A stretch of 33,844 nt of DNA. Source: Planctomycetota bacterium. Lineage in GTDB: Bacteria; Planctomycetota; Phycisphaerae; Phycisphaerales; Phycisphaeraceae. The DNA lies in assembly GCA_024279865.1 (NCBI GenBank), contig JAJRRC010000086.1:1-33844 (forward strand). The letters run 5' to 3'. This document shows, in pieces, positions 1,536 to 29,079 of the stretch (its first letter is position 1; every line of letters begins with the position of its first letter). The notes under the pieces were generated by a model. The model did not search any database. It was given only the letters and a program-made list of their open reading frames with translations, and was not told the origin of the DNA. Made by a program: the position numbers and the translations under genes.

Positions 1536-2537
1536 CTACTTCCGGGGGCGGGGGTAGCCTTGGGGATTTGTTTTGAACCATTCCCATGCGGTTTGAACAA
1601 TCGCGTCAATGTCGGTGTAATTGGGACTCCATCCGGTTGCTTCGCGGAGTTTGTCTGCATTGGCATAGAGCTGAGCGGGATCGCCTTCGCGGCGAGGGCC
1701 GACTTCCACGGGAATATTTTTACCTGTTACGCGTCTAGCTGCGTCGAGGACTTCTTTCACAGAGTAGCCGTTGCCGATGCCGAGGTTGTAGAAGTTTTGA
1801 TCGCCATTTTCCAGATTCGCCATGCACAGGACATGGGCATTGATCAGGTCTTCGACATGGATGTAATCGCGTACGCAGGTTCCGTCAGGCGTGGGGTAAT
1901 CCGTCCCAAACAACGTGACCTTGTCGCGTAAGCCCAAGGCAACGAGGAGCAGGACGGGGATGAGATGGGTTTCCCCCGTGCCATGGTCTTCGCCGATGGT
2001 TCCGTCGGCAGCGGACCCTGCCACGTTAAAATATCGTAACGCGGTAAAAGCGAACTTGGGATTGGCTGCTGCATAGTCTCGCAACACATGTTCGACCATG
2101 AGCTTGCTCATGCCATAAGGGTTGATCGGATGTTGTGGCATCTCTTCGACAATGGGCATCCGGTCAGGCTGGCCATACGTCGCACAAGTCGAACTGAACA
2201 CCAAGCGATGAACGCCCACCTGATTCATCGCACGCAGGAGACTGATACTGCCCGCGGTATTGTTATCGTAATACCAAAGCGGATCACCCACGGATTCGCC
2301 AACATAGGCCAATGCCGCAAAGTGGTAGACTGCAGAGATATGGTGACGTTGTAACACGTCAGCCACCGCATCGGTTTGCCGCAGGTCGATCTGTTCAAGG
2401 ATCACATCCTCGGGAACCGCTTCTTTGTGTCCCCGGGACAGGTTGTCTAGCACGACGACGTTTTGTCCTCGCATTTTAAGTTGTTTCACGCAATGCGAGC
2501 CGATGTAGCCCGCTCCGCCAGTGACGAGTACGTTCAT
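1536..2537 (-). CDS. galE: UDP-glucose 4-epimerase
   Basis: Interconverts UDP-glucose and UDP-galactose in the cytoplasm (Leloir pathway and polysaccharide precursor supply). The N-terminus MNVLVTGGAGYIGSH is the NAD-binding GxxGxxG Rossmann motif. FSSTCATYG and YGMSKLMVE supply the catalytic Ser/Thr and the YxxxK pair, and LRYFNVAG and GTCVRDYIHVEDL are GalE signatures. Its 333 residues match the family. I chose the ATG at 2537 because homology begins there and it lies 2 nt after the stop of the upstream membrane protein gene, suggesting translational coupling. Longer in-frame starts run into that gene. The last codons and the TAG stop (PRPRK, 1536-1553) fall inside a CTTCCGGGGG-type repeat, and an IS lies 12 bp downstream. 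Confidence 0.95.
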   Translation of the reverse strand: MNVLVTGGAGYIGSHCVKQLKMRGQNVVVLDNLSRGHKEAVPEDVILEQIDLRQTDAVADVLQRHHISAVYHFAALAYVGESVGDPLWYYDNNTAGSISLLRAMNQVGVHRLVFSSTCATYGQPDRMPIVEEMPQHPINPYGMSKLMVEHVLRDYAAANPKFAFTALRYFNVAGSAADGTIGEDHGTGETHLIPVLLLVALGLRDKVTLFGTDYPTPDGTCVRDYIHVEDLINAHVLCMANLENGDQNFYNLGIGNGYSVKEVLDAARRVTGKNIPVEVGPRREGDPAQLYANADKLREATGWSPNYTDIDAIVQTAWEWFKTNPQGYPRPRK

Positions 2538-2539
2538 GT

Positions 2540-3190
2540 TTAATGCATCCATTTCATAATAGCGACGCCACCCACGAGCAAAACCACAAAGACAACGCAA
2601 AGTAAGTTGAAGTATTTATCGATCAGCGGGGTTGCCTTGGGACCGACCCAATAGAACAACAATGCCACGCCAAAGAACCTTGTCGCACGTCCGACTAGAC
2701 AAGCCAATGTAAAGATGAGCAAGCTCATTTTTGCAAACCCAGCTGTAATCGTCAGCAACTTAAAAGGGATCGGCGTGAGGGCTGCAATAAAAACATACCA
2801 CTGGCCATGCACTTCAAATTCACCTGCCAGTAAATCCACGCGATCTTGGGTAATGCCTGGAATCATCAACGCCAAATCAATGAGGCTACACCCAATGACA
2901 TACCCCAGATACGCCCCCAAAACACTTCCCAAGGTACAGACCGAGGCAAACCAAAGAGCCTTCTTGCGATTCCCCAGACAAAGCGGCGCCAACAACACAT
3001 CAGGCGGAATCGGAAAAAAACTGGATTCCACAAAACTCAACACAAACAACGCCAGCGTGGCATGTTTGTGACGAGCGAAGGAAATTACCCAATCGTACAT
3101 TCGCCGATGAATCGCCCAACGGCTCACCGTCGGCACCTTTTGCTCTATTGTGTTCGAAACAGAATCATTCATACAAATAGTGTCAGCCAC
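2540..3190 (-). CDS. DedA/YqaA-type membrane protein (VTT domain)
   Basis: A polytopic inner-membrane protein of about 216 residues. Hydrophobic segments include LALFVLSFVESSFFPIPPDV, a glycine-rich segment (LGSVLGAYLGYVIG), VFIAALTPIPFKLLTITAG and a C-terminal helix (LLCVVFVVLLVGGVAI). The ESSFFPIPPDV and TPIPFK(L)xxxxAG elements are the hallmark of the SNARE-associated/VTT (DedA) superfamily, here closest to the YqaA branch. DedA-like proteins are linked to lipid or undecaprenyl-phosphate flipping, but the substrate here is unknown. The start is uncertain: a GTG at 3190 has GAGGAG 12 nt upstream, while an ATG at 3172 lacks a clear site. Its stop is 2 nt from galE, so the two probably form an operon. 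Confidence 0.82.
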   Translation of the reverse strand: MADTICMNDSVSNTIEQKVPTVSRWAIHRRMYDWVISFARHKHATLALFVLSFVESSFFPIPPDVLLAPLCLGNRKKALWFASVCTLGSVLGAYLGYVIGCSLIDLALMIPGITQDRVDLLAGEFEVHGQWYVFIAALTPIPFKLLTITAGFAKMSLLIFTLACLVGRATRFFGVALLFYWVGPKATPLIDKYFNLLCVVFVVLLVGGVAIMKWMH

Positions 3191-6303: not shown

Positions 6304-7659
6304 TCAAACAACCCGAGGCGCATCCGTCGGCGAAAAATCGTCGGGATCGTTGACCAACGCACCGGCAGGCGCGGAGATACTTCCTCCAAGCAGCGGATCC
6401 TGCGTTTTGTGCATCCAACGTTCCAAACGGTCACGCATCTGATTGGCGATGTCTTTTAAGAATGGGGCATCAATGCGATTATTGGCTTCATTGGGATCAA
6501 ACATCAAATCGTAAAGCATTTCCGACTCGACTGCGATATCGGATAGACCATGCTCAATCCAGAAAGATCGCGACTCTCCTTCATCACAATTGGACATCAC
6601 GGGCTTGGCTCGTTGGTCATAACGTCGAATGTATTTCCATCGTTTGGTTCGCACGCTTCGCAAAGGTTCATACGCTGCATGAAAATTAACCTCGGCAAAT
6701 AGTTCCTCGTGAAGATCTTCGGTTTCACCACGCACCAACGGACCAAGCGACTGGCCTTCAAGCCAGCTTGGTGGGTCAATTTGCAAAAGATCGCAAACCG
6801 TGGGAAAGACATCAAGATGGCTGACCATGGCATCGATGACCTTGCCGCCGGTGAATTGACCGGGGCCTCGCATGATCAGCAGGACCCCTGTGCCGTTGTC
6901 GTGCAAGTGGCATTTCATTTTGGGAAAGGCAATACCATGATCGGTGGTGCAAATGACCAAGGTATTTTCCGCCAAGCCTTGGCTGTCCAGTGCATCTAAG
7001 ATCATGCCGATTTTTGCATCCAAAGAACGGGCACTGGCTTTGTAGCGGACCATGTCCTCACGCACCTGCGGGGTATCGGGGAAAGGTGTCGGTGGCAAGC
7101 AATAACGAGGATCATCGGCCGCTTCATCAAGCGTGGGGAACTCTCGATGCGTTTCAAAAAAACCAACCGAAAGAAAAAACGGCTCATCCCGCGGCATCTT
7201 TAAAAATTCGACCGCGGTTTCATGGGCGGAATGATAATTTCCCAAGAAATGATCATAGCCAATCACCTCGGGAGCCTCTTTGCCATCGCGTGCGGTGGCA
7301 ATGTGCTGTACACCCGCCAAAGCGGTGGTATAACCTTGTCCGCTTAATTGGTGTAACAAATGCTGCCTATAATCGTTCAAGGTAAATCCGCGATGGGCCA
7401 AGCCCAGCATGCCGTTTTGGTGGGCATAGCTACCGGTCAGCAAACAGGCCCGACTGGGGCTGCATGTGGGATTCACACAAAACGCTTGCCGAAACAACAC
7501 GCCTTCTTCAGCGAGTTGTTGCAAACGCGGGGTGGGGACCGCGTGTCCATAAGGCTGAATGTATCGTCCTGTATCGTGAGAATGAATGTACAAAATATTG
7601 GGTCGCCCCCGGAAGTTTTTGGGGTTTCCCGCAGACTGACTTGTTGGCTGGGCTGACAT
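6304..7659 (-). CDS. Sulfatase (Cys-type, heparan N-sulfatase-like)
   Basis: 451 residues of the alkaline-phosphatase-superfamily sulfatases. CSPSRACLLTGSYAHQNG is the sulfatase signature C-x-P-S-R, whose Cys is converted to formylglycine. RPNILYIHSHDTGR near the N-terminus and TDHGIAFPKMKCHLHDNG provide metal-site residues. LRSVRTKRWKYIRRYD is typical of the C-terminal part. The overall form recalls N-sulfoglucosamine sulfohydrolases, but the substrate is unproven. ATG 7659 is chosen because AAGGAAG lies about 6 nt upstream. No signal peptide is visible, so the enzyme may be cytosolic. A CTTCCGGGGGCG repeat copy encodes NFRGRP just before the first strand. It converges on the GH5 gene with a 25-bp gap. 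Confidence 0.9.
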   Translation of the reverse strand: MSAQPTSQSAGNPKNFRGRPNILYIHSHDTGRYIQPYGHAVPTPRLQQLAEEGVLFRQAFCVNPTCSPSRACLLTGSYAHQNGMLGLAHRGFTLNDYRQHLLHQLSGQGYTTALAGVQHIATARDGKEAPEVIGYDHFLGNYHSAHETAVEFLKMPRDEPFFLSVGFFETHREFPTLDEAADDPRYCLPPTPFPDTPQVREDMVRYKASARSLDAKIGMILDALDSQGLAENTLVICTTDHGIAFPKMKCHLHDNGTGVLLIMRGPGQFTGGKVIDAMVSHLDVFPTVCDLLQIDPPSWLEGQSLGPLVRGETEDLHEELFAEVNFHAAYEPLRSVRTKRWKYIRRYDQRAKPVMSNCDEGESRSFWIEHGLSDIAVESEMLYDLMFDPNEANNRIDAPFLKDIANQMRDRLERWMHKTQDPLLGGSISAPAGALVNDPDDFSPTDAPRVV

Positions 7660-7705
7660 TAAAACTTCCTTACGGATCAAAAAAAACAGAAAAACCTTAT
7701 CAATA

Positions 7706-9828: not shown

Positions 9829-9857
9829 AGCTATCAGCTATCAGCTATCAGTTGTCA
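9829..9857. repeat. 7-bp tandem repeat AGCTATC
   Basis: AGCTATC is repeated three times, then a diverged AGTTGTC, in the gap between scpA and kdsD. Short direct repeats of this type can slip. I see no function. Confidence 0.6.
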
Positions 9858-12428: not shown

Positions 12429-12899
12429 TTAGGTACGAATGCCATGAGCGGGATCTGTTTCGTCTTCAAGCATTTCGGGGTCACGCTTGGCTAAGCTGGC
12501 CATATCGACACCGGTCGTCCCCTTAATGGAGGTGTTGACCGAGGATCGGACCCAATCAAGGCTGCCTGAGTACCACTCATACGCAAAACCGATAATGAGG
12601 ATTGTGATAAAGGGCATTCCCACCCACAGAGCGGGTATGGGGGCTTCTCGGAAAACCACGGCCCATGGATAAATCAAAGCCACTTCCACATCAAAAATCA
12701 GATAAAACAAAGCCACGATATAGAATCGCAGGTCAAACTGCACCCAACTGGTTCCGATGGTGGGTTCGCCACATTCATAAATCGCTTGTTTTTCACGGTT
12801 GGGCATCGAAGGACGTAAGAGCTTGCCCACTGTCAGATTAACAATGACAAAACCAAATCCGACTGCCAGGAAAAGTGTTATTGAAAGCAGTTGTTCCAT
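12429..12899 (-). CDS. nuoA: NADH-quinone oxidoreductase subunit A, separated from the nuo operon
   Basis: A membrane subunit of complex I with three transmembrane helices: LLSITLFLAVGFGFVIVNL, then FYIVALFYLIFDVEVALIYPWAVVF with its conserved Glu/Asp, and WVGMPFITILIIGFAYEW. REKQAIYECGEPTIGTSWVQFDLRFY is the NuoA loop signature. 156 residues; the last 40 form a hydrophilic extension (VDMASLAKRDPEML...) longer than usual. ATG 12899 is chosen by homology. The longer in-frame start near 13001 arises from a GC-rich repeat copy. nuoB and the other subunits do not follow; adk does. The complex I genes must be elsewhere, or nuoA has moved. Confidence 0.93.
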   Translation of the reverse strand: MEQLLSITLFLAVGFGFVIVNLTVGKLLRPSMPNREKQAIYECGEPTIGTSWVQFDLRFYIVALFYLIFDVEVALIYPWAVVFREAPIPALWVGMPFITILIIGFAYEWYSGSLDWVRSSVNTSIKGTTGVDMASLAKRDPEMLEDETDPAHGIRT

Positions 12900-12980
12900 C
12901 TTTAAGACCGACTCCAGCTTGACTGTAGATCCAACCGAAAGGTTATCGTAACGATCTAATGCCAGTTGAACAACTTGGGT

Positions 12981-13034
12981 CCCCCCCCGGAAGCTGGCCA
13001 TTGGTTAAACACAAGCTCTAGGTTGCCCCCCCCG
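12981..13034. repeat. Single degenerate copy of the 44-bp GC-rich repeat unit
   Basis: Starting from C8-GGAAGCTGG, this copy matches the tandem unit at 18936-19154 with about six substitutions, including CACAAGC and GGTTGCCCCCCC. It lies between nuoA and the HD-GYP gene. The unit is therefore dispersed as well as tandem. Confidence 0.7.
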
Positions 13035-14424: not shown

Positions 14425-15333
14425 ATGCGAGAATTAAACCTTCTTCAACATATTTATGCCCATAACGACCAACTGCCCGGGCTGGTTCAAATCCCCCCTG
14501 GCGATGACATGGGAGCGATTCAGCTGGGCGACCAGACCCTTTTATTGGCTGTCGATCAGGTGATTGATGGGATTCATGTGGATTTAAAAACCACGTCACT
14601 CCAACGCATCGGCCGCAAGGCAGTCACGCGGAACCTCTCTGATGTGGCTGCCATGGCAGCGGTGCCTTTGGCGACTTTGGCGACGGCGACTTTGCCTCGC
14701 ACCTTTGGCCAGGATCGAGCTGAAGCCTTGTTCGATGCCATGCGCCAAACCGCCCAGCAGTATCAGTGCCCGCTCGTCGGCGGCGACATGGCTATTGGCG
14801 ATGGCCCCTTGCATCTCACCGTGACGATTTTAGCCAAACCCGATGGCATTGAGCCGGTCCTGCGATCTGGCAGCAATATCGGCGACGTGATTTGTGTCAC
14901 CGGCCAGCTCGGCCGCAGTTTGCCCACAGGCCATCACCTCGATTTCCTCCCCCGCCTCCAAGCAGCCCGAACCTTGGCAAGCGATCCCCGCACCCGCCCC
15001 CATGCCATGATCGACCTCAGTGACGGCCTCGGATGTGACCTCAAACATCTCTGCGATGCCAGCAATCTCAGCGCCATCCTCTTTGAAAACCAACTCCCCT
15101 ATCGTGACCACGCCAACTGGACCGAAGCCGTCGGCAATGGGGAAGATTACGAACTCTGCTTCACGATGGACCCTCAGTCTGTCCCCAAAGAAGCAGCCGG
15201 CGTTCGGATCAGCGTCATTGGTCAAATGATCGAAGTAAAACAAACACCCACGGTTTCTCTTCAACGCCTTGATGGTTCAAGGGTTTGCCTTGACAATCGA
15301 GGCTGGGAACATCAGGATCAGAATCATGTTTGA
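14425..15333 (+). CDS. thiL: Thiamine-monophosphate kinase
   Basis: Phosphorylates thiamine monophosphate to the active cofactor thiamine diphosphate. PPGDDMGAIQLGDQTLLLAVDQVIDGIHV holds the ATP- and Mg-binding Asp residues, NLSDVAAMAAVPLATLATATLP is the ThiL signature, LVGGDMAIGDGPLHLTVTI follows, and AMIDLSDGLGCDLKHLCDAS plus GEDYELCFT close the family pattern. 302 residues, slightly short but complete. It overlaps the tsaE start by 8 nt. The HD-GYP gene is divergent upstream. Confidence 0.94.
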   Translation: MRELNLLQHIYAHNDQLPGLVQIPPGDDMGAIQLGDQTLLLAVDQVIDGIHVDLKTTSLQRIGRKAVTRNLSDVAAMAAVPLATLATATLPRTFGQDRAEALFDAMRQTAQQYQCPLVGGDMAIGDGPLHLTVTILAKPDGIEPVLRSGSNIGDVICVTGQLGRSLPTGHHLDFLPRLQAARTLASDPRTRPHAMIDLSDGLGCDLKHLCDASNLSAILFENQLPYRDHANWTEAVGNGEDYELCFTMDPQSVPKEAAGVRISVIGQMIEVKQTPTVSLQRLDGSRVCLDNRGWEHQDQNHV

Positions 15334-15919
15334 ACTCACATCCACCAGCCCCGAGCAAACCTTACTCCTAGGTGAAGCCATTGCGTCCCAGCTCCAGCGG
15401 GGCGATTGCCTGACCCTTGATGGCGAACTAGGCGTTGGCAAAACCCAGCTCGTCCGAGGTCTCGCCGGCGGCCTGAACATCGACCCCCATCAAGTCGCCA
15501 GTCCCACCTTCGTCGTCATGCACGAATACGAACCGCGCGAGGGGTCCTGCAATAATCCAAATTCCCAAGAAAAAATTTCCGACGAAGTATCCAAGGACTC
15601 AACCCCTACCCAAGGGCCAGCTTCCGGGGGGGCTTCCGGGGGGGCTTCCGGGGGCGGGGGGGGGATTTGGTTGATTCATATTGATGCTTATCGTCTGAAC
15701 GATTCTGCGGAGCTGGACCAATTGGGCTGGAAGGATGAGCAGGATCAGACCATCATGGTCATTGAATGGGCCGACCGCGTGGCAGAAGCATTGCCTGCGG
15801 ATCGCTTGGCCATCTTCATTTCACATGCGGGTCTGGAGCAACGTGACTCGATTTTTACCGGGCATGGCCGCTGGGCCGACCGCCTTGAAACTTTAGAAAA
15901 ACGACTGAGAACTCTCTAA
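15326..15919 (+). CDS. tsaE: tRNA threonylcarbamoyladenosine ATPase TsaE, with a repeat insertion
   Basis: The P-loop ATPase that works with TsaB and TsaD to make t6A37 in ANN-decoding tRNAs. LDGELGVGKTQLVRGLAGGL (residues 31-50) is Walker A, SPTFVVMHEYE is the conserved strand, IHIDAYRL carries the DxYR motif and MVIEWADRV the EW motif. TsaE is usually about 150 residues. This one has 197 because roughly 43 residues (about 71-113) are inserted between HEYE and WLIHIDAYRL, ending in three ASGG repeats and a Gly run. These repeats come from CTTCCGGGGG copies at 15621, 15633 and 15645. TsaE is normally essential, so the insertion must be tolerated in a surface loop. The ATG overlaps the thiL stop. 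Confidence 0.92.
   Translation: MFELTSTSPEQTLLLGEAIASQLQRGDCLTLDGELGVGKTQLVRGLAGGLNIDPHQVASPTFVVMHEYEPREGSCNNPNSQEKISDEVSKDSTPTQGPASGGASGGASGGGGGIWLIHIDAYRLNDSAELDQLGWKDEQDQTIMVIEWADRVAEALPADRLAIFISHAGLEQRDSIFTGHGRWADRLETLEKRLRTL
15621..15664 (+). repeat. Three 12-nt CTTCCGGGGG repeats and a G9 run inside tsaE
   Basis: Exact 10-mer copies begin at 15621, 15633 and 15645, a spacing of 12 nt that preserves frame. They are followed by G5-C-G9; the G9 run is 15656-15664. Four G-runs separated by 1- to 5-nt loops satisfy the usual G-quadruplex pattern on the coding strand. Confidence 0.9.
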
Positions 15920-18211: not shown

Positions 18212-18378
18212 TCTATGACCTACTTTGCGGACTTGGCTTACAACTCCACAAAGAACTGTCATTACGCCCAAAACCTGCCGCTTTGGCCTAATGAATGAAA
18301 CGCTCATCAGCTTGGTCGCGACCCTGCTGGATGATCACTCTTACAGATTGCCGTCTTTTTGATAAAAGGAGTTCATCC

Positions 18379-18846
18379 ATGCCACTTTTTACTTCCAAAC
18401 GTATTTTCTACGCCATCATCGTTGGAGCCATGGGTCTGGGGCTTGCTCAACCCACTTTCGCAGGCTATGGCGGGAACCGGGGGGACCGGGGGGACCGGGG
18501 GGACCGGGGGGACCGGTTCCGTCAATCTGACCGAGGGCATAACCGATACAGTCGGCACAACAACCGCCACCATCGCCGTCATGACAGCCAAACCCGCTTC
18601 TCCATTCAGCTCGGAAACGCTTTTTTTAGCGGATTTTTTGGGTCTTGTTGCAAAAGCGGCTACTACCGCCAAACATGGGTTAGTCCTGTCTATTACACAC
18701 GATACGATCGCTGTGGCAATCCCTATCAGGTCATGATCAGACTAGGATACACACAAAAAATTTGGATTGCTGCAACCTGTCGTGACCCCAATGGGTATTA
18801 CCATCGAGGACACAAAAGACAATCCCATGGCCGCAACACCTATTAA
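18379..18846 (+). CDS. Secreted protein with Arg-Gly-Asp repeats, unknown function
   Basis: 155 residues. The N-terminus is a signal peptide (MPLFTSKRIFYAIIVG... ending TFAGYG). Next comes NRGDRGDRGDRGDRF encoded by four 9-nt repeats, then a basic Arg/His/Asn-rich linker (HNRYSRHNNRHHRRHD). The C-terminal half is a Tyr-rich domain with four cysteines (SCCKSG, YDRCGNPYQV, AATCRDPNG) that may form disulfides. AAGGAG at 18366-18371 sets the start. I do not recognise the family. The RGD runs come from a G-rich DNA repeat, so an adhesion role should not be assumed. A terminator follows at 18895. Confidence 0.7.
   Translation: MPLFTSKRIFYAIIVGAMGLGLAQPTFAGYGGNRGDRGDRGDRGDRFRQSDRGHNRYSRHNNRHHRRHDSQTRFSIQLGNAFFSGFFGSCCKSGYYRQTWVSPVYYTRYDRCGNPYQVMIRLGYTQKIWIAATCRDPNGYYHRGHKRQSHGRNTY
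18478..18513 (+). repeat. Four 9-nt CGGGGGGAC repeats coding for Arg-Gly-Asp
   Basis: Exact tandem copies with a 9-nt period, so frame is kept. G6 runs separated by ACC fit a G-quadruplex pattern. The GGGGGG-A-CC composition resembles the CTTCCGGGGG repeats elsewhere in the window. Confidence 0.85.
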
Positions 18847-18926: not shown

Positions 18927-21935
<3,009 letters not shown>

Positions 21936-25620: not shown

Positions 25621-28600
25621 ATGTCCACAACCATCACCGATAGCAAGTTCGCTGACCTGAAAAATAAACTCCGTGAACTCTTCGAACTCGACAAGTCTGA
25701 TCTGGACTTTGGCATCTATCGCATCATGGCAGCTAAAAACAAGGAAGTCACCGCCTTCCTCGATCGTCAGCTCCGTGATGTGGTCCGCGAGATCCTCGAT
25801 CAGCATGGTGCAGGTGAATCTGACAAGCTTCAGCACCAGCTTGACGAAGCGATCTCCCATGCCAAAGAACTCGGTGCTGATCCAGATTCGCTCCCAAAAA
25901 TACAACAACTCAAAGCTCAACTCACTTCCACCGGCACCACTTCCGGAGCTTACGGAACTTCCGGGGGGACTTCCGGGGGGCAGCTTGAAGCGGATATCTA
26001 CAACCATCTGCTAGCCTTCTTTAGTCGTTACTACGATGAAGGCGACTTCATCTCCAAAAGACGTTACAAGGGCGACACCTATGCCATCCCCTACAACGGC
26101 GAAGAAGTTACCCTCCACTGGGCCAACAAGGATCAGTACTACATCAAGTCCGGCGAATGGCACAAAGACTACCGCTTTTCTGTGACAGGAACTTCCGGGG
26201 GAACTTCCGGGGGAACTTCCGGGGGGACTTCCGGGGGGGGGAAGTCTGTGCGGTTCCAGCTTGTCGAAGCTTCGCAGGAAACCAACAACAACAAAGAACG
26301 CGATGACTCGAAACGCCGCTACATCCTCGCCCACGAAAACCCGATCCATGAAACAGCATCGGAATTGACACTACGGTTTGAATTTCGTGTGCCAACCGAT
26401 CATGACAAACAACGGGCCGAGGGTGCGGTGGCGATCTTTGGCGGCAAATTTGCCACTGGCAAGAATCCGAAAAAGGGTGATGAACGCGAGCAGTTTTGTG
26501 CCGACGCCGAAAAACGCGCAGTCGCAGCCCTCTCCACAACCTGGCTCAAACGCGTCGCCTCGACCAGCACACATGCCACAGAGACGAAGCCCGCCCGCAC
26601 TTTGCTAGGCAAACATATTGATACCTTCACCGCCCGCAACACCTTTGATTATTTCATCCACAAGGACCTTGGCGGATTTCTTAAACGGGAGTTGGATTTT
26701 TATATCAAAAATGAAGTCGTTCGATTGGATGATCTGGAAAACCTTCCTGCAGATCATTTGGTCAAGGTTCAAGGCAAAGTCAAAGCCATCCGCACCGTGG
26801 CTACCAGCATCATCGACTTTTTAGCTGCCATCGAAAACTTCCAGAAAAAGATGTGGCTCAAAAAGAAGTTCGTCTTAAACACCAATTGGCTCGTCACCCT
26901 CGACCGCATCCCCGCCAAGCTCCGTGACACCGTTGCAGCCAATGATGCCCAGTGGGCTGAATGGGAACAACTGGGTTTCAAACCAGAAACCCCCGCCCCC
27001 GCCCCCGGAAGCCCCGAAAGTGGCGGCCAGCAATCTTTGCTCCCCGCCGCCGATTGGCACACCCGCGAGTATCTTGAAGAAAACGACAAACTCGTCGTCG
27101 ATACCCGCTTCTTTGATCCAATGTTCAAAGCAGATGTGTTGGCGAGTGAAGAGGTGTTGGGCGGTGAAAACTTTGACAAAATTCATTGTGGCACTTTTAT
27201 TAATTCAGACAATTTTAATGCATTGAATCTTTTTCAGAGATTGCTTGATGGACAGATCAAGTGTATTCATATCGATCCGCCATATAACACAGCTTCAAGT
27301 GGCTTTATGTACAAAAATAATTACCAACATTCAAGTTGGTTGTCGCTGATGTACGACCGACTGCAAATTGCCCGTAACATGCTCAAAAATGATGGCGTGT
27401 TTCTTTGTCATATTGATGAGTACGAAATTGAACGCCTTCAAATGTTATTTGATCAGTTGGGTTACGTTGATTCGGGTGTTATGGTTTGGGATAAGGGAAT
27501 GCCAACTGCTGGTGCAATAGGATTGGCTACGCAGCACGAATATGTTTTGTGGAGATCAATTGAAAATGTAAGCGTGCGAGTAAGCAAGCAGAATATCGAC
27601 TCGATGCAAATTGCAGCAAAAACGATTATTGAACAATATGGTTCTGCGATACCTGAGGCATTAGCTGAATATCGAAGTTGGTTGAGAAATGAAAAGTCCT
27701 TGGCAAAATCTGAGATGACGTACAATACAATTGACGATCAAGGTCGGCCATTTCGATCAGATAATATGAGTGCTACAGATCGACGAACTAACCCCAAGTT
27801 TTACAAGCCATTGACACATCCAATTACAGGGAAAGAATGCCCTGTTCCAGAGTACGGCTTTCGGTATACCCCTACTACACTAGCTAGGCTCTTGGAAGAA
27901 GATTTAGTTTTATTTGGCGAAACACATGAAAACATGCCTCGTAAAAAAACATTCTTGGAGAACCAAACAAGTAGCCAAGTTCCTTCTTTATACAAGAGTG
28001 GAAGTCGTGGAAAAATGGACTTGGATAATCTGGGTTTAAATTTTCCATTTGCACATCCAGTTGATCTATACGATTACATGCATATGGCTGCTATTGAGTC
28101 TAAAGGGACTATTGTTGATTTTTTTGGTGGATCAGGTACAGCAGCGCATTCAGCAATAAATGTTAACCGCATGCCAGGAAAGAGTGTTAAATTTATTCTC
28201 GCGGAAATGGGAGATCAATTTACTCGCGCAATACGTCCGCGTATCACCAAGGTTCTTTATTCACCGGAATGGAAAGATGGCAAGGCACAGGTGCATGGAC
28301 AGGGGACTTCGGCGTTGGTCAAATACTTTGCATTGGAGAGTTATGAAGATGCGTTAAACAATCTGCCGACGCCTACGGGGGATTTGTTGGCGGATGCGGA
28401 TGAGGCGACGCAGCAGGCGATGATCGCCTACAGCCTTGACTTGGAGATGGGGCCGAACCTGTTGAACCTTGATGCCTTTGCCGACCCTTGGGGGTATACG
28501 ATCAACGCCCAGCTAGCGGGTGAGGACGCGATCACGCCCCATGCGGTGGACCTGATGGAGACGTTTAATTACCTGTTGGGTTTGAAGGTTCATAGCTACG

Positions 28601-29079
28601 GGCCGATTGAGAAATTCACTGCCGAGTTTGAACGTGCAGAACATGCAGATGATATGGGCCGACTCAAAATCAAAGGCAAGCTCCGCCGCGACATGAAAAA
28701 AGGAACGTTCGTCTTCCAACGTGTCGAAGGTGAACTACTTGATGGCACCCGCATCCTAGTAATCTGGCGCAAACTCCCCCCCGGAAGTGCCCCCGCCCCC
28801 GGAAGTGCCCCCGCCCCCGGAAGTGCCCCCGCCCCCGGAAGGCAAGGCAAGGTAGCCTCGACAAGTGCTGAGCAGGATGCTGCGGTACTTGATGCCTGGA
28901 TGGCCCGACATGGCGAGCAGACCAAAGAGCGAAGCGAACACCGTGACTATCACCAGATCTACATCAACGGTCCGGTGACGCTAGAGCAACCCACCGCTGA
29001 AATTCGCACCGTCATGCCCATTGAGCAAACATTCCGCGATAGAATGTTCGAAGATTGTGATGAGGGAGGCATGCTGTGA
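25621..29079 (+). CDS. Large adenine-specific DNA methyltransferase (Mod-like) with repeat insertions
   Basis: 1152 residues. Motif IV is DPPYNT (about 552-557) and motif I is VDFFGGSGTAAHSAI (about 832-846); this order is the beta class, as in type III Mod subunits. Predicted to methylate adenine N6 and protect host DNA. The N-terminal 500 residues contain LDFGIYRIMAAKNKE and a basic KRRYKGDTYAIPYNG region; the C-terminal part follows the catalytic core. Four repeat insertions lie about residues 113-120 and 191-206 (TSGG units), 459-466, and 1053-1075 (PGSAPA units). Residues about 515-880 are AT-rich while both sides are GC-rich. A G9 run (26233-26241) lies in the second insertion. The stop overlaps the next gene by 4 nt (GTGA). 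Confidence 0.9.
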   Translation: MSTTITDSKFADLKNKLRELFELDKSDLDFGIYRIMAAKNKEVTAFLDRQLRDVVREILDQHGAGESDKLQHQLDEAISHAKELGADPDSLPKIQQLKAQLTSTGTTSGAYGTSGGTSGGQLEADIYNHLLAFFSRYYDEGDFISKRRYKGDTYAIPYNGEEVTLHWANKDQYYIKSGEWHKDYRFSVTGTSGGTSGGTSGGTSGGGKSVRFQLVEASQETNNNKERDDSKRRYILAHENPIHETASELTLRFEFRVPTDHDKQRAEGAVAIFGGKFATGKNPKKGDEREQFCADAEKRAVAALSTTWLKRVASTSTHATETKPARTLLGKHIDTFTARNTFDYFIHKDLGGFLKRELDFYIKNEVVRLDDLENLPADHLVKVQGKVKAIRTVATSIIDFLAAIENFQKKMWLKKKFVLNTNWLVTLDRIPAKLRDTVAANDAQWAEWEQLGFKPETPAPAPGSPESGGQQSLLPAADWHTREYLEENDKLVVDTRFFDPMFKADVLASEEVLGGENFDKIHCGTFINSDNFNALNLFQRLLDGQIKCIHIDPPYNTASSGFMYKNNYQHSSWLSLMYDRLQIARNMLKNDGVFLCHIDEYEIERLQMLFDQLGYVDSGVMVWDKGMPTAGAIGLATQHEYVLWRSIENVSVRVSKQNIDSMQIAAKTIIEQYGSAIPEALAEYRSWLRNEKSLAKSEMTYNTIDDQGRPFRSDNMSATDRRTNPKFYKPLTHPITGKECPVPEYGFRYTPTTLARLLEEDLVLFGETHENMPRKKTFLENQTSSQVPSLYKSGSRGKMDLDNLGLNFPFAHPVDLYDYMHMAAIESKGTIVDFFGGSGTAAHSAINVNRMPGKSVKFILAEMGDQFTRAIRPRITKVLYSPEWKDGKAQVHGQGTSALVKYFALESYEDALNNLPTPTGDLLADADEATQQAMIAYSLDLEMGPNLLNLDAFADPWGYTINAQLAGEDAITPHAVDLMETFNYLLGLKVHSYGPIEKFTAEFERAEHADDMGRLKIKGKLRRDMKKGTFVFQRVEGELLDGTRILVIWRKLPPGSAPAPGSAPAPGSAPAPGRQGKVASTSAEQDAAVLDAWMARHGEQTKERSEHRDYHQIYINGPVTLEQPTAEIRTVMPIEQTFRDRMFEDCDEGGML
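25958..25979 (+). repeat. Two 12-nt CTTCCGGGGG repeats in the methyltransferase
   Basis: Exact cores at 25958 and 25970, with a degenerate one (CTTCCGGAGC) at about 25940. Translated as TSGG TSGG. The upstream CTTCCACCGG at 25924 also resembles the core. Confidence 0.85.
26192..26241 (+). repeat. Four 12-nt CTTCCGGGGG repeats and a G9 run in the methyltransferase
   Basis: Cores at 26192, 26204, 26216 and 26228, then G9 at 26233-26241. Translated as TSGG repeated four times. Loops of 6-7 nt between the G-runs fit a G-quadruplex. The single-base run is the part that could shift frame by slippage. Confidence 0.9.
27002..27011 (-). repeat. Single CCCCCGGAAG copy, reverse orientation, in the methyltransferase
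   Basis: Lies in a GCCCCCGCCCCC context and encodes Pro/Ala-rich APAPGSPESGG, a likely linker. Confidence 0.75.
27165..28260 (+). other. AT-rich catalytic core segment of the methyltransferase
   Basis: Lines sampled by eye run 27-40% GC between about 27181 and 28200, against 57-65% just before (26881-26940) and after (28441-28500). The segment covers motif IV, the likely target-recognition region and motif I. The change is abrupt at about 27165 and gradual near 28260. This pattern suggests that the core and specificity region were exchanged by recombination. Confidence 0.75.
28778..28841 (-). repeat. Four 18-nt CCCCCGGAAG repeats in the methyltransferase
   Basis: Cores at 28778, 28796, 28814 and 28832, spaced 18 nt so frame is kept, in the opposite orientation to the first two insertions. 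Translated as PGSAPA units. Confidence 0.9.

Follow-up and report, generated by a model that had tools for sequence, protein, structure and literature searches.

How does a long, repeat-rich stretch come to sit inside an essential enzyme? The question is raised by tsaE in a 33,844-nucleotide contig of a Planctomycetota bacterium placed in the Phycisphaeraceae (GCA_024279865.1, JAJRRC010000086.1; the whole of it is called the window here, its genome is G000, relatives are labelled G003, G006, G015 and so on, and individual stretches L164, L169 and so on). The open reading frame (ORF; Table 1) matches the TsaE family profile, its best matches in the Protein Data Bank (PDB) are TsaE structures (5np9, 5mvr), and the P-loop GxxGxGKT, the HxD and the EW motifs are all present. 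Residues G33, G36, G38, K39, T40, H118, D120, E147 and W148, which we take to be catalytic, are invariant over a 30-row TsaE alignment and retained in the window. A short DNA word, CTTCCGGGGG, has many sites, the tsaE insert being among them, and our reading, to which we give a probability of roughly 0.4, is that this word is DNA-uptake-sequence-like in a planctomycete family (probably the Phycisphaeraceae) and was multiplied in G000 by tandem insertion.

The PDB matches leave query residues 70–111 unmatched between two aligned stretches, and the span from SPTF to HxDxY (HIDAY in the window) is 55 residues long as against 13–30, median 16, in 29 relatives, which are those read out of the 54 further genomes in which TsaE was matched (the match is absent in 6 of 61 genomes, 4 of these being less than 90 per cent complete). 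The insertion reported in a preliminary description of the locus is therefore real, although nearer 38–40 residues than the 43 given there. An equally long non-repeat loop in relatives, which that description named as the observation that would speak against it, was not found among the 29, the longest loop (30 residues, G015) itself holding the word in the opposite orientation. The AlphaFold2 model of TsaE (mean predicted local distance difference test (pLDDT) 87.4, predicted template modelling score 0.80) has strands at 65–68 and 115–120 with coil between them, and the ten-residue pLDDT means for residues 71–110 are 66, 56, 53 and 45. Because of this low-confidence coil and the range of loop lengths in relatives, the insertion is predicted to be a disordered loop between two confident strands, at a place that is variable in relatives too; with the invariant residues kept, the earlier suggestion of a tolerated loop is borne out.

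Within the insert the three ASGG units and the G9 run had been read correctly, the 12-bp units occupying 15620–15654. The part before the exact units had been taken for non-repeat sequence; to the eye it looks like decayed copies of the unit. The worry that a one-base slip in the G9 run would destroy the enzyme is sound in principle; whole 12-bp units, by contrast, preserve the frame. A hairpin in the insert was dropped, its folding being no better than that of shuffled sequence. The gene is found in three states with respect to the word: three copies in an inserted loop in G000, one reversed copy in the same loop in G015, and one copy in native codons, NIDPRKVSSPTF, in G006; the word is absent from the TsaE stretch read in the other 27 of the 29 relatives.

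The 3.42-Mb G000 genome carries 352 + 308 = 660 copies of the word and two of the reversed word, an abundance that is thus beyond chance. With 660 words in the genome and comparable inserts in further core proteins, an insertion specific to tsaE was rejected, and the repeat pressure suspected earlier holds as a genome-wide matter, shared across part of the family, and not as a property of tsaE. Over 51 family genomes the counts lie between 3 and 1180, the two strands being about equally represented (G015 1180, G006 1067, G026 727, G000 660), and at least 100 words are present in 7 of 250 order-level genomes outside the family (G045, G057, G075, G076, G081, G117 and G223). Two words 12 bp apart occur in 22 of the 51 family genomes as against 6 of 150 outside, with G015 (133) and G000 (115) dominating. 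A word-pattern scan of named genomes gave, among the matches listed, single occurrences in unrelated bacteria (Streptomyces, Haematobacter and others).

Word statistics were taken from samples of about 400 kb per genome (396 kb for G006; 405,735 bp for G000, made up of 20 stretches and the window) against a second-order Markov expectation. The G000 stretches were chosen from contigs already known to bear the word and hold 0.33 words/kb as against 0.19/kb in the whole genome; those of G006 and G026 likewise come largely from word-bearing contigs. Ranked by over-representation, the word or its complement comes first among 10-mers in G000, G006, G026 and G030, at 231, 166, 50 and 57 times expectation. 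Among the six genomes sampled it is not the top 10-mer in G003 (7 against 2.7 expected) or G005 (0 against 0.3), and variants of it were discarded as a possibility in these two word-poor genomes, whose top words look unrelated by eye. In the four word-rich samples words with one mismatch reach 4.3, 3.8, 2.2 and 2.2 times expectation and those with two mismatches 0.9–1.1, and exact words outnumber all thirty one-mismatch words together in G000 (135 v 84) and G006 (110 v 98). The exact-word excess is a trace of upkeep of the exact word, clearest in these two genomes. Called genes hold 95 of 110 words in G006 (coding 0.89), 41 of 54 in G026 and 99 of 135 in G000, as judged by a codon-score ORF picker; the cluster survey counted tsaE as intergenic, and a looser overlap rule was used afterwards. 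The in-gene words of G006 fall in all six phases, 48 along and 47 against gene direction. The flanks of the word in that genome are biased to MA before and YG after it, no farther position passing the same threshold. Codon usage was rejected as a cause, codon-shuffled genes yielding 0–2 words as against the 95–99 seen. A second over-represented word, around TTTCGAGTTTC, was noticed in G006, with 39 copies of one 10-mer in 396 kb (L248–L267).

These statistics resemble those of the uptake sequences known from Neisseriaceae (DNA uptake sequences, DUS) and Pasteurellaceae (uptake signal sequences, USS) (PMC1939737). Such sequences are described (PMC1939737, PMC3630211, PMC2346458) as sharing features of this kind: they have an exact-word profile, occur in ORFs, form some inverted pairs and show no orientation bias. 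Like them, CTTCCGGGGG is an exact word of the 9–12-bp class and by inspection not a palindrome, it is over-represented in four of the six genomes, and it reaches hundreds to about a thousand copies on both strands, with a large share of these in ORFs in both orientations, some inverted pairs and a steep fall with mismatches. Phylum and word differ, however, and the likeness here lies in sequence statistics. While the spread of the word and its in-frame insertions are matters of observation, a function in uptake we infer from this comparison. An account of the word was not found in the literature searched (planctomycete repeats, uptake sequences and the word itself), subscription journals lying mostly outside coverage, and papers containing the word, its complement or its 9-mer core were, among the matches listed, on other subjects by title or abstract.

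The word might instead resemble HIP1, its exact form being maintained from within the cell, whether by a methyltransferase with biased repair or by a nucleoid or segregation protein, and the tandems of G000 arising by slippage. As with HIP1 in cyanobacteria, a short exact word is found at high copy in native coding sequence, across the genera of a clade (PMC4390886). Yet HIP words, which are linked to methyltransferases, are described as palindromic (PMC4390886), whereas CTTCCGGGGG is not a palindrome, and such a process alone does not explain why insertions carry the word; we regard it as an unlikely cause.

How the word enters genes differs between genomes. Homologues were lacking for 42 of 61 gene clusters in G000, 50 of 92 in G006, 26 of 41 in G026 and 11 of 11 in G030; among the testable remainder, alignment to homologues was free of gaps in 34 of 42 (G006), 13 of 15 (G026) and 6 of 19 (G000), the G000 share differing from the other two at Fisher p 3.3e-4 and 1.9e-3, respectively. 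Random four-residue windows in the same genes were gapped in 24 of 396 cases in G000, 9 of 558 in G006 and 14 of 290 in G026. Two words 12 bp apart were found 30 times in the G000 sample, once in that of G006 and never in those of G026 and G030. The word thus sits mostly in native, gap-free codons in G006 and G026, while most G000 sites are in-frame insertions, many of them 12-bp tandems. The phase that would yield FRG or PRK is taken by 10 of 99 in-gene words in G000 (binomial p 7e-8 against one third, words within arrays not being independent) and by 25 of 95 in G006 (p 0.09), and its depletion in G000 suggests that there the protein filters what stays.

The G000 insertions sit in loops of housekeeping proteins, TsaE, ThrRS, ValRS and a DnaK paralogue among them. 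Cluster-bearing proteins in this genome include a MiaB-like radical SAM protein, DnaX, MutL, DnaA, PurL, Hsp70, ValRS, ThrRS and asparagine synthase (30 proteins were scanned against Pfam, 4 of them without a match). When aligned to solved structures, residues 280–327 of the DnaK paralogue fall between adjacent template residues 204 and 205, the word arrays of ThrRS (190–213) and ValRS (733–759) likewise fall in extra loops, and the AsnB alignment stops at the word array. ValRS of G000 (L169 4451–7585) has a second extra stretch of about 65 residues, at 645–710, without the word. The ThrRS loop is 34 residues long in G000 as against 11–16 in the four relatives measured; several ThrRS loci, and one DnaK locus (L188), did not fit the motif pattern and were left unmeasured. 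In ThrRS of G030 (L206) the loop reaches 72 residues, as against the same 11–16, and its sequence shows no relation to the word. Orthologues of the DnaK paralogue share its long loop, at 52–87 residues in the eight read (G000 included) as against 13 in 12 ordinary DnaK copies, and exact words lie inside it in G000, G026 and G030. In G006 (L179) short tandem repeats of another kind, with GGGATCA and GCCATCC units, are found in the Hsp70 paralogue's long and variable loop, as if this loop collected repeats.

In-frame inserts in unrelated proteins might also be expected of a small non-autonomous mobile element, whether REP (repetitive extragenic palindrome), MITE (miniature inverted-repeat transposable element) or Rickettsia-palindromic-element-like, that inserts in frame into genes and then decays. 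The G000 inserts do lie in both orientations in loops of unrelated proteins, as Rickettsia palindromic elements and intragenic REPs lie in frame in proteins that include those of replication and repair (PMC3733652). Decay also rises on one side of the clusters: decayed units matching at least 8 of 10 bases lie upstream of exact ones in 46 cases and downstream in 13 over 81 G000 clusters (shuffles 3.0 and 4.3), with 91 and 33 at 7 of 10 bases (shuffles 24.6 and 31.2), and G-rich tails follow the exact units. Opposite-strand neighbours less than 100 bp apart in G000 are arranged arms-outward in five of five cases (exact words; 68–92 bp apart), and the opposite arrangement does not occur nearer than 157 bp; elsewhere such pairs are few (three outward and one inward in G006, one and one in G030).

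Against such an element, alignments over the 84 G000 clusters are largely confined to the unit, although a few intergenic arrays share more flank, and decay should leave many one-mismatch copies, yet there are 84 of these to 135 exact words. Most testable word sites in G006 and G026 are not insertions, and the counts of Y1 (RAYT) transposases, discarded as a driver, are out of step with those of the word, G028 and G029 having none and 479 and 270 words, respectively. Rickettsia palindromic elements and REPs are moreover palindromes of 20–40 bp or longer (PMC3733652), whereas the CTTCCGGGGG unit is a non-palindromic 10–12 bp with little shared flank. A mobile origin accordingly seems rather improbable. 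At named loci YR forms the linker between tandem copies in 83 of 120 cases, which makes the unit at those loci a 12-bp word in head-to-tail copies; the linkers in the 20 G000 stretches are most often GG (11 of 24), with YR in 8 of 24. Close hairpin pairs of the word occur in 13 of 51 genomes, with 21 among the 1067 words of G006, and a close hairpin was dropped as its general form. A REP-like palindrome, GACGCGCAAGC..GCTTGCGGCTA, gave nine matches in the 20 G000 stretches (L164, L166, L168, L169, L174), one of them inside the DnaK-paralogue insert, one, by eye, between two word arms in L169 and none in tsaE; its core, GACGCG...GCGGCTA, was set aside as the basis of the inserts.

The arrays, with their repeated G-tracts, 5-base spacers and G-rich tails, could alternatively be G-quadruplex repeats like those of Xanthomonas and Nostoc, maintained for the structure they give the DNA and multiplied by slippage. 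The GGGNATC repeats of those genera are, like the arrays, G-rich short tandem repeats found across the genome, but they prefer four units and non-coding DNA (PMC4692102). By comparison, clusters of one to five words in the G000 sample (135 words in 84 clusters) number 54, 17, 7, 4 and 2, so that only four have four words, and 99 of the 135 words lie in genes. The single 12-bp tandem in 396 kb of G006 also speaks against quadruplexes, as does the CTTCC part of the word, which a structural role would not need in exact form, and the idea appears very unlikely.

Least probable of all, in our estimate, is a Chi-like or segregation signal recognized by the machinery of recombination or replication. 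A short, exact, G-rich word at high copy is what such a signal might look like, but in G006 the words run along and against gene direction about equally (48 v 47), and no significant replichore bias was seen in G009 (78 of its 80 words, p 0.08), the latter being weak evidence because G009 is word-poor.

Several observations weigh against an uptake-sequence-like word as well. That replichore test, made on G009, is weak. The origin given for uptake sequences is point mutation and not insertion (PMC1939737), a statement that the many tandem insertions of G000 contradict for that genome, and tandem insertion of this kind is not described for them in the available text of PMC1939737, PMC3630211 or PMC2346458. 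In G026 (75 v 54) and G030 (30 v 20) one-mismatch words exceed exact ones, and in G006 word sites are gapped in 8 of 42 cases as against the 9 of 558 for random windows, so that word sites prefer variable places there too. A ComEC match was found in 44 of 51 family genomes, G000 included, which shows the channel gene only; it does not discriminate, being present in word-poor genomes, and it is absent in G009 (99 per cent complete, 80 words) and G028 (66 per cent complete, 479 words). Even spacing is a trait of uptake sequences, and it was dropped here, the words being spaced unevenly with variance/mean ratios of 1.20–1.54 in G006 and 1.06–1.93 in G026.

If the word is nonetheless uptake-sequence-like, fragments bearing it would be taken up and recombined preferentially, and molecular drive would spread alleles that contain it, or contain it in more copies, as far as protein function permits. 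In G006 and G026 such drive would mostly convert native codons, while in the lineage of the window tandem copies in permissive loops would be kept as well. Drive by biased uptake and recombination would explain the upkeep of the word in essential genes whose protein gains nothing, and tandem copies kept in permissive loops would account for a Gly/Ser loop in an essential enzyme with no need for the loop itself to have a role. This fuller picture, of a planctomycete uptake-sequence system whose drive converts codons and also keeps and multiplies in-frame tandem copies, so that TsaE, ThrRS, ValRS and further core proteins have acquired disordered loops of no benefit to them, is put forward as a doubtful proposal. 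A word from a distant phylum with the same statistical traits would offer an independent test in the long-standing dispute over how such words are upheld, by mate recognition, by drive or through an intracellular role, and G000 would add a case of DNA-level drive visibly reshaping essential proteins. Should the uptake reading prove wrong, there would still be a 10-mer to account for, one that is the most over-represented in four genera and enters housekeeping genes in frame.

The window holds 22 words: three in tsaE, 11 in one DNA methylase ORF (PF01555; four clusters in both orientations), five in an intergenic array of 44-bp units and three singles (Table 1).

Table 1. Features of tsaE and sites of the word CTTCCGGGGG in the window
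Feature	Position	Strand	Basis
tsaE, complete ORF, 197 aa	15326-15919	+	PF02367 E 1.8e-31; PDB TsaE matches; alignment
In-frame insertion, ~38-40 aa, ends approximate	15545-15664	+	loop lengths, alignment, AlphaFold2
Stretch resembling decayed units, 5' of exact ones; limits approximate	15560-15619	+	by eye; general polarity
Three exact words at 15621, 15633, 15645, 12-bp spacing, coding ASGG ASGG ASGG	15621-15654	+	
G9 run	15656-15664	+	
Single word near 3' end of epimerase-family ORF 1536-2600 (-)	1539-1548	+	
Single word in sulfatase ORF 6304-7680 (-)	7606-7615	-	
Single word, 5' end of ORF 12429-13001 (-)	12984-12993	-	
Intergenic array, 44-bp unit x 5.1; five exact words (18931, 18975, 19018, 19062, 19106)	18929-19152	-	
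Two tandem words in DNA methylase ORF 25621-29079 (+)	25958-25979	+	
Four tandem words in the same ORF	26192-26237	+	
One reverse-oriented word in the same ORF	27002-27011	-	
Four reverse-oriented words, 18-bp spacing, in the same ORF	28778-28841	-	

Two other G000 contigs, C59 (1–110) and C27 (4–103), start inside 45–46-bp word arrays, so that the assembly may have broken at arrays and too few copies may have been counted in them. A second repeat family, CTCTTACTGATAGCTGATAGC..., with units of 7–8 bp, is present at 9830–9851 of the window and in other clusters in the G000 stretches; its 8-mer gave 67 matches forming 44 clusters, of which 31 are intergenic, and the clusters frequently lie between CTCTTACTGA and an A-rich end. 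At 18472–18516 of the window a 9-bp unit, GGGGACCGG, is repeated five times and codes for a GDR repeat in ORF 18295–18846.
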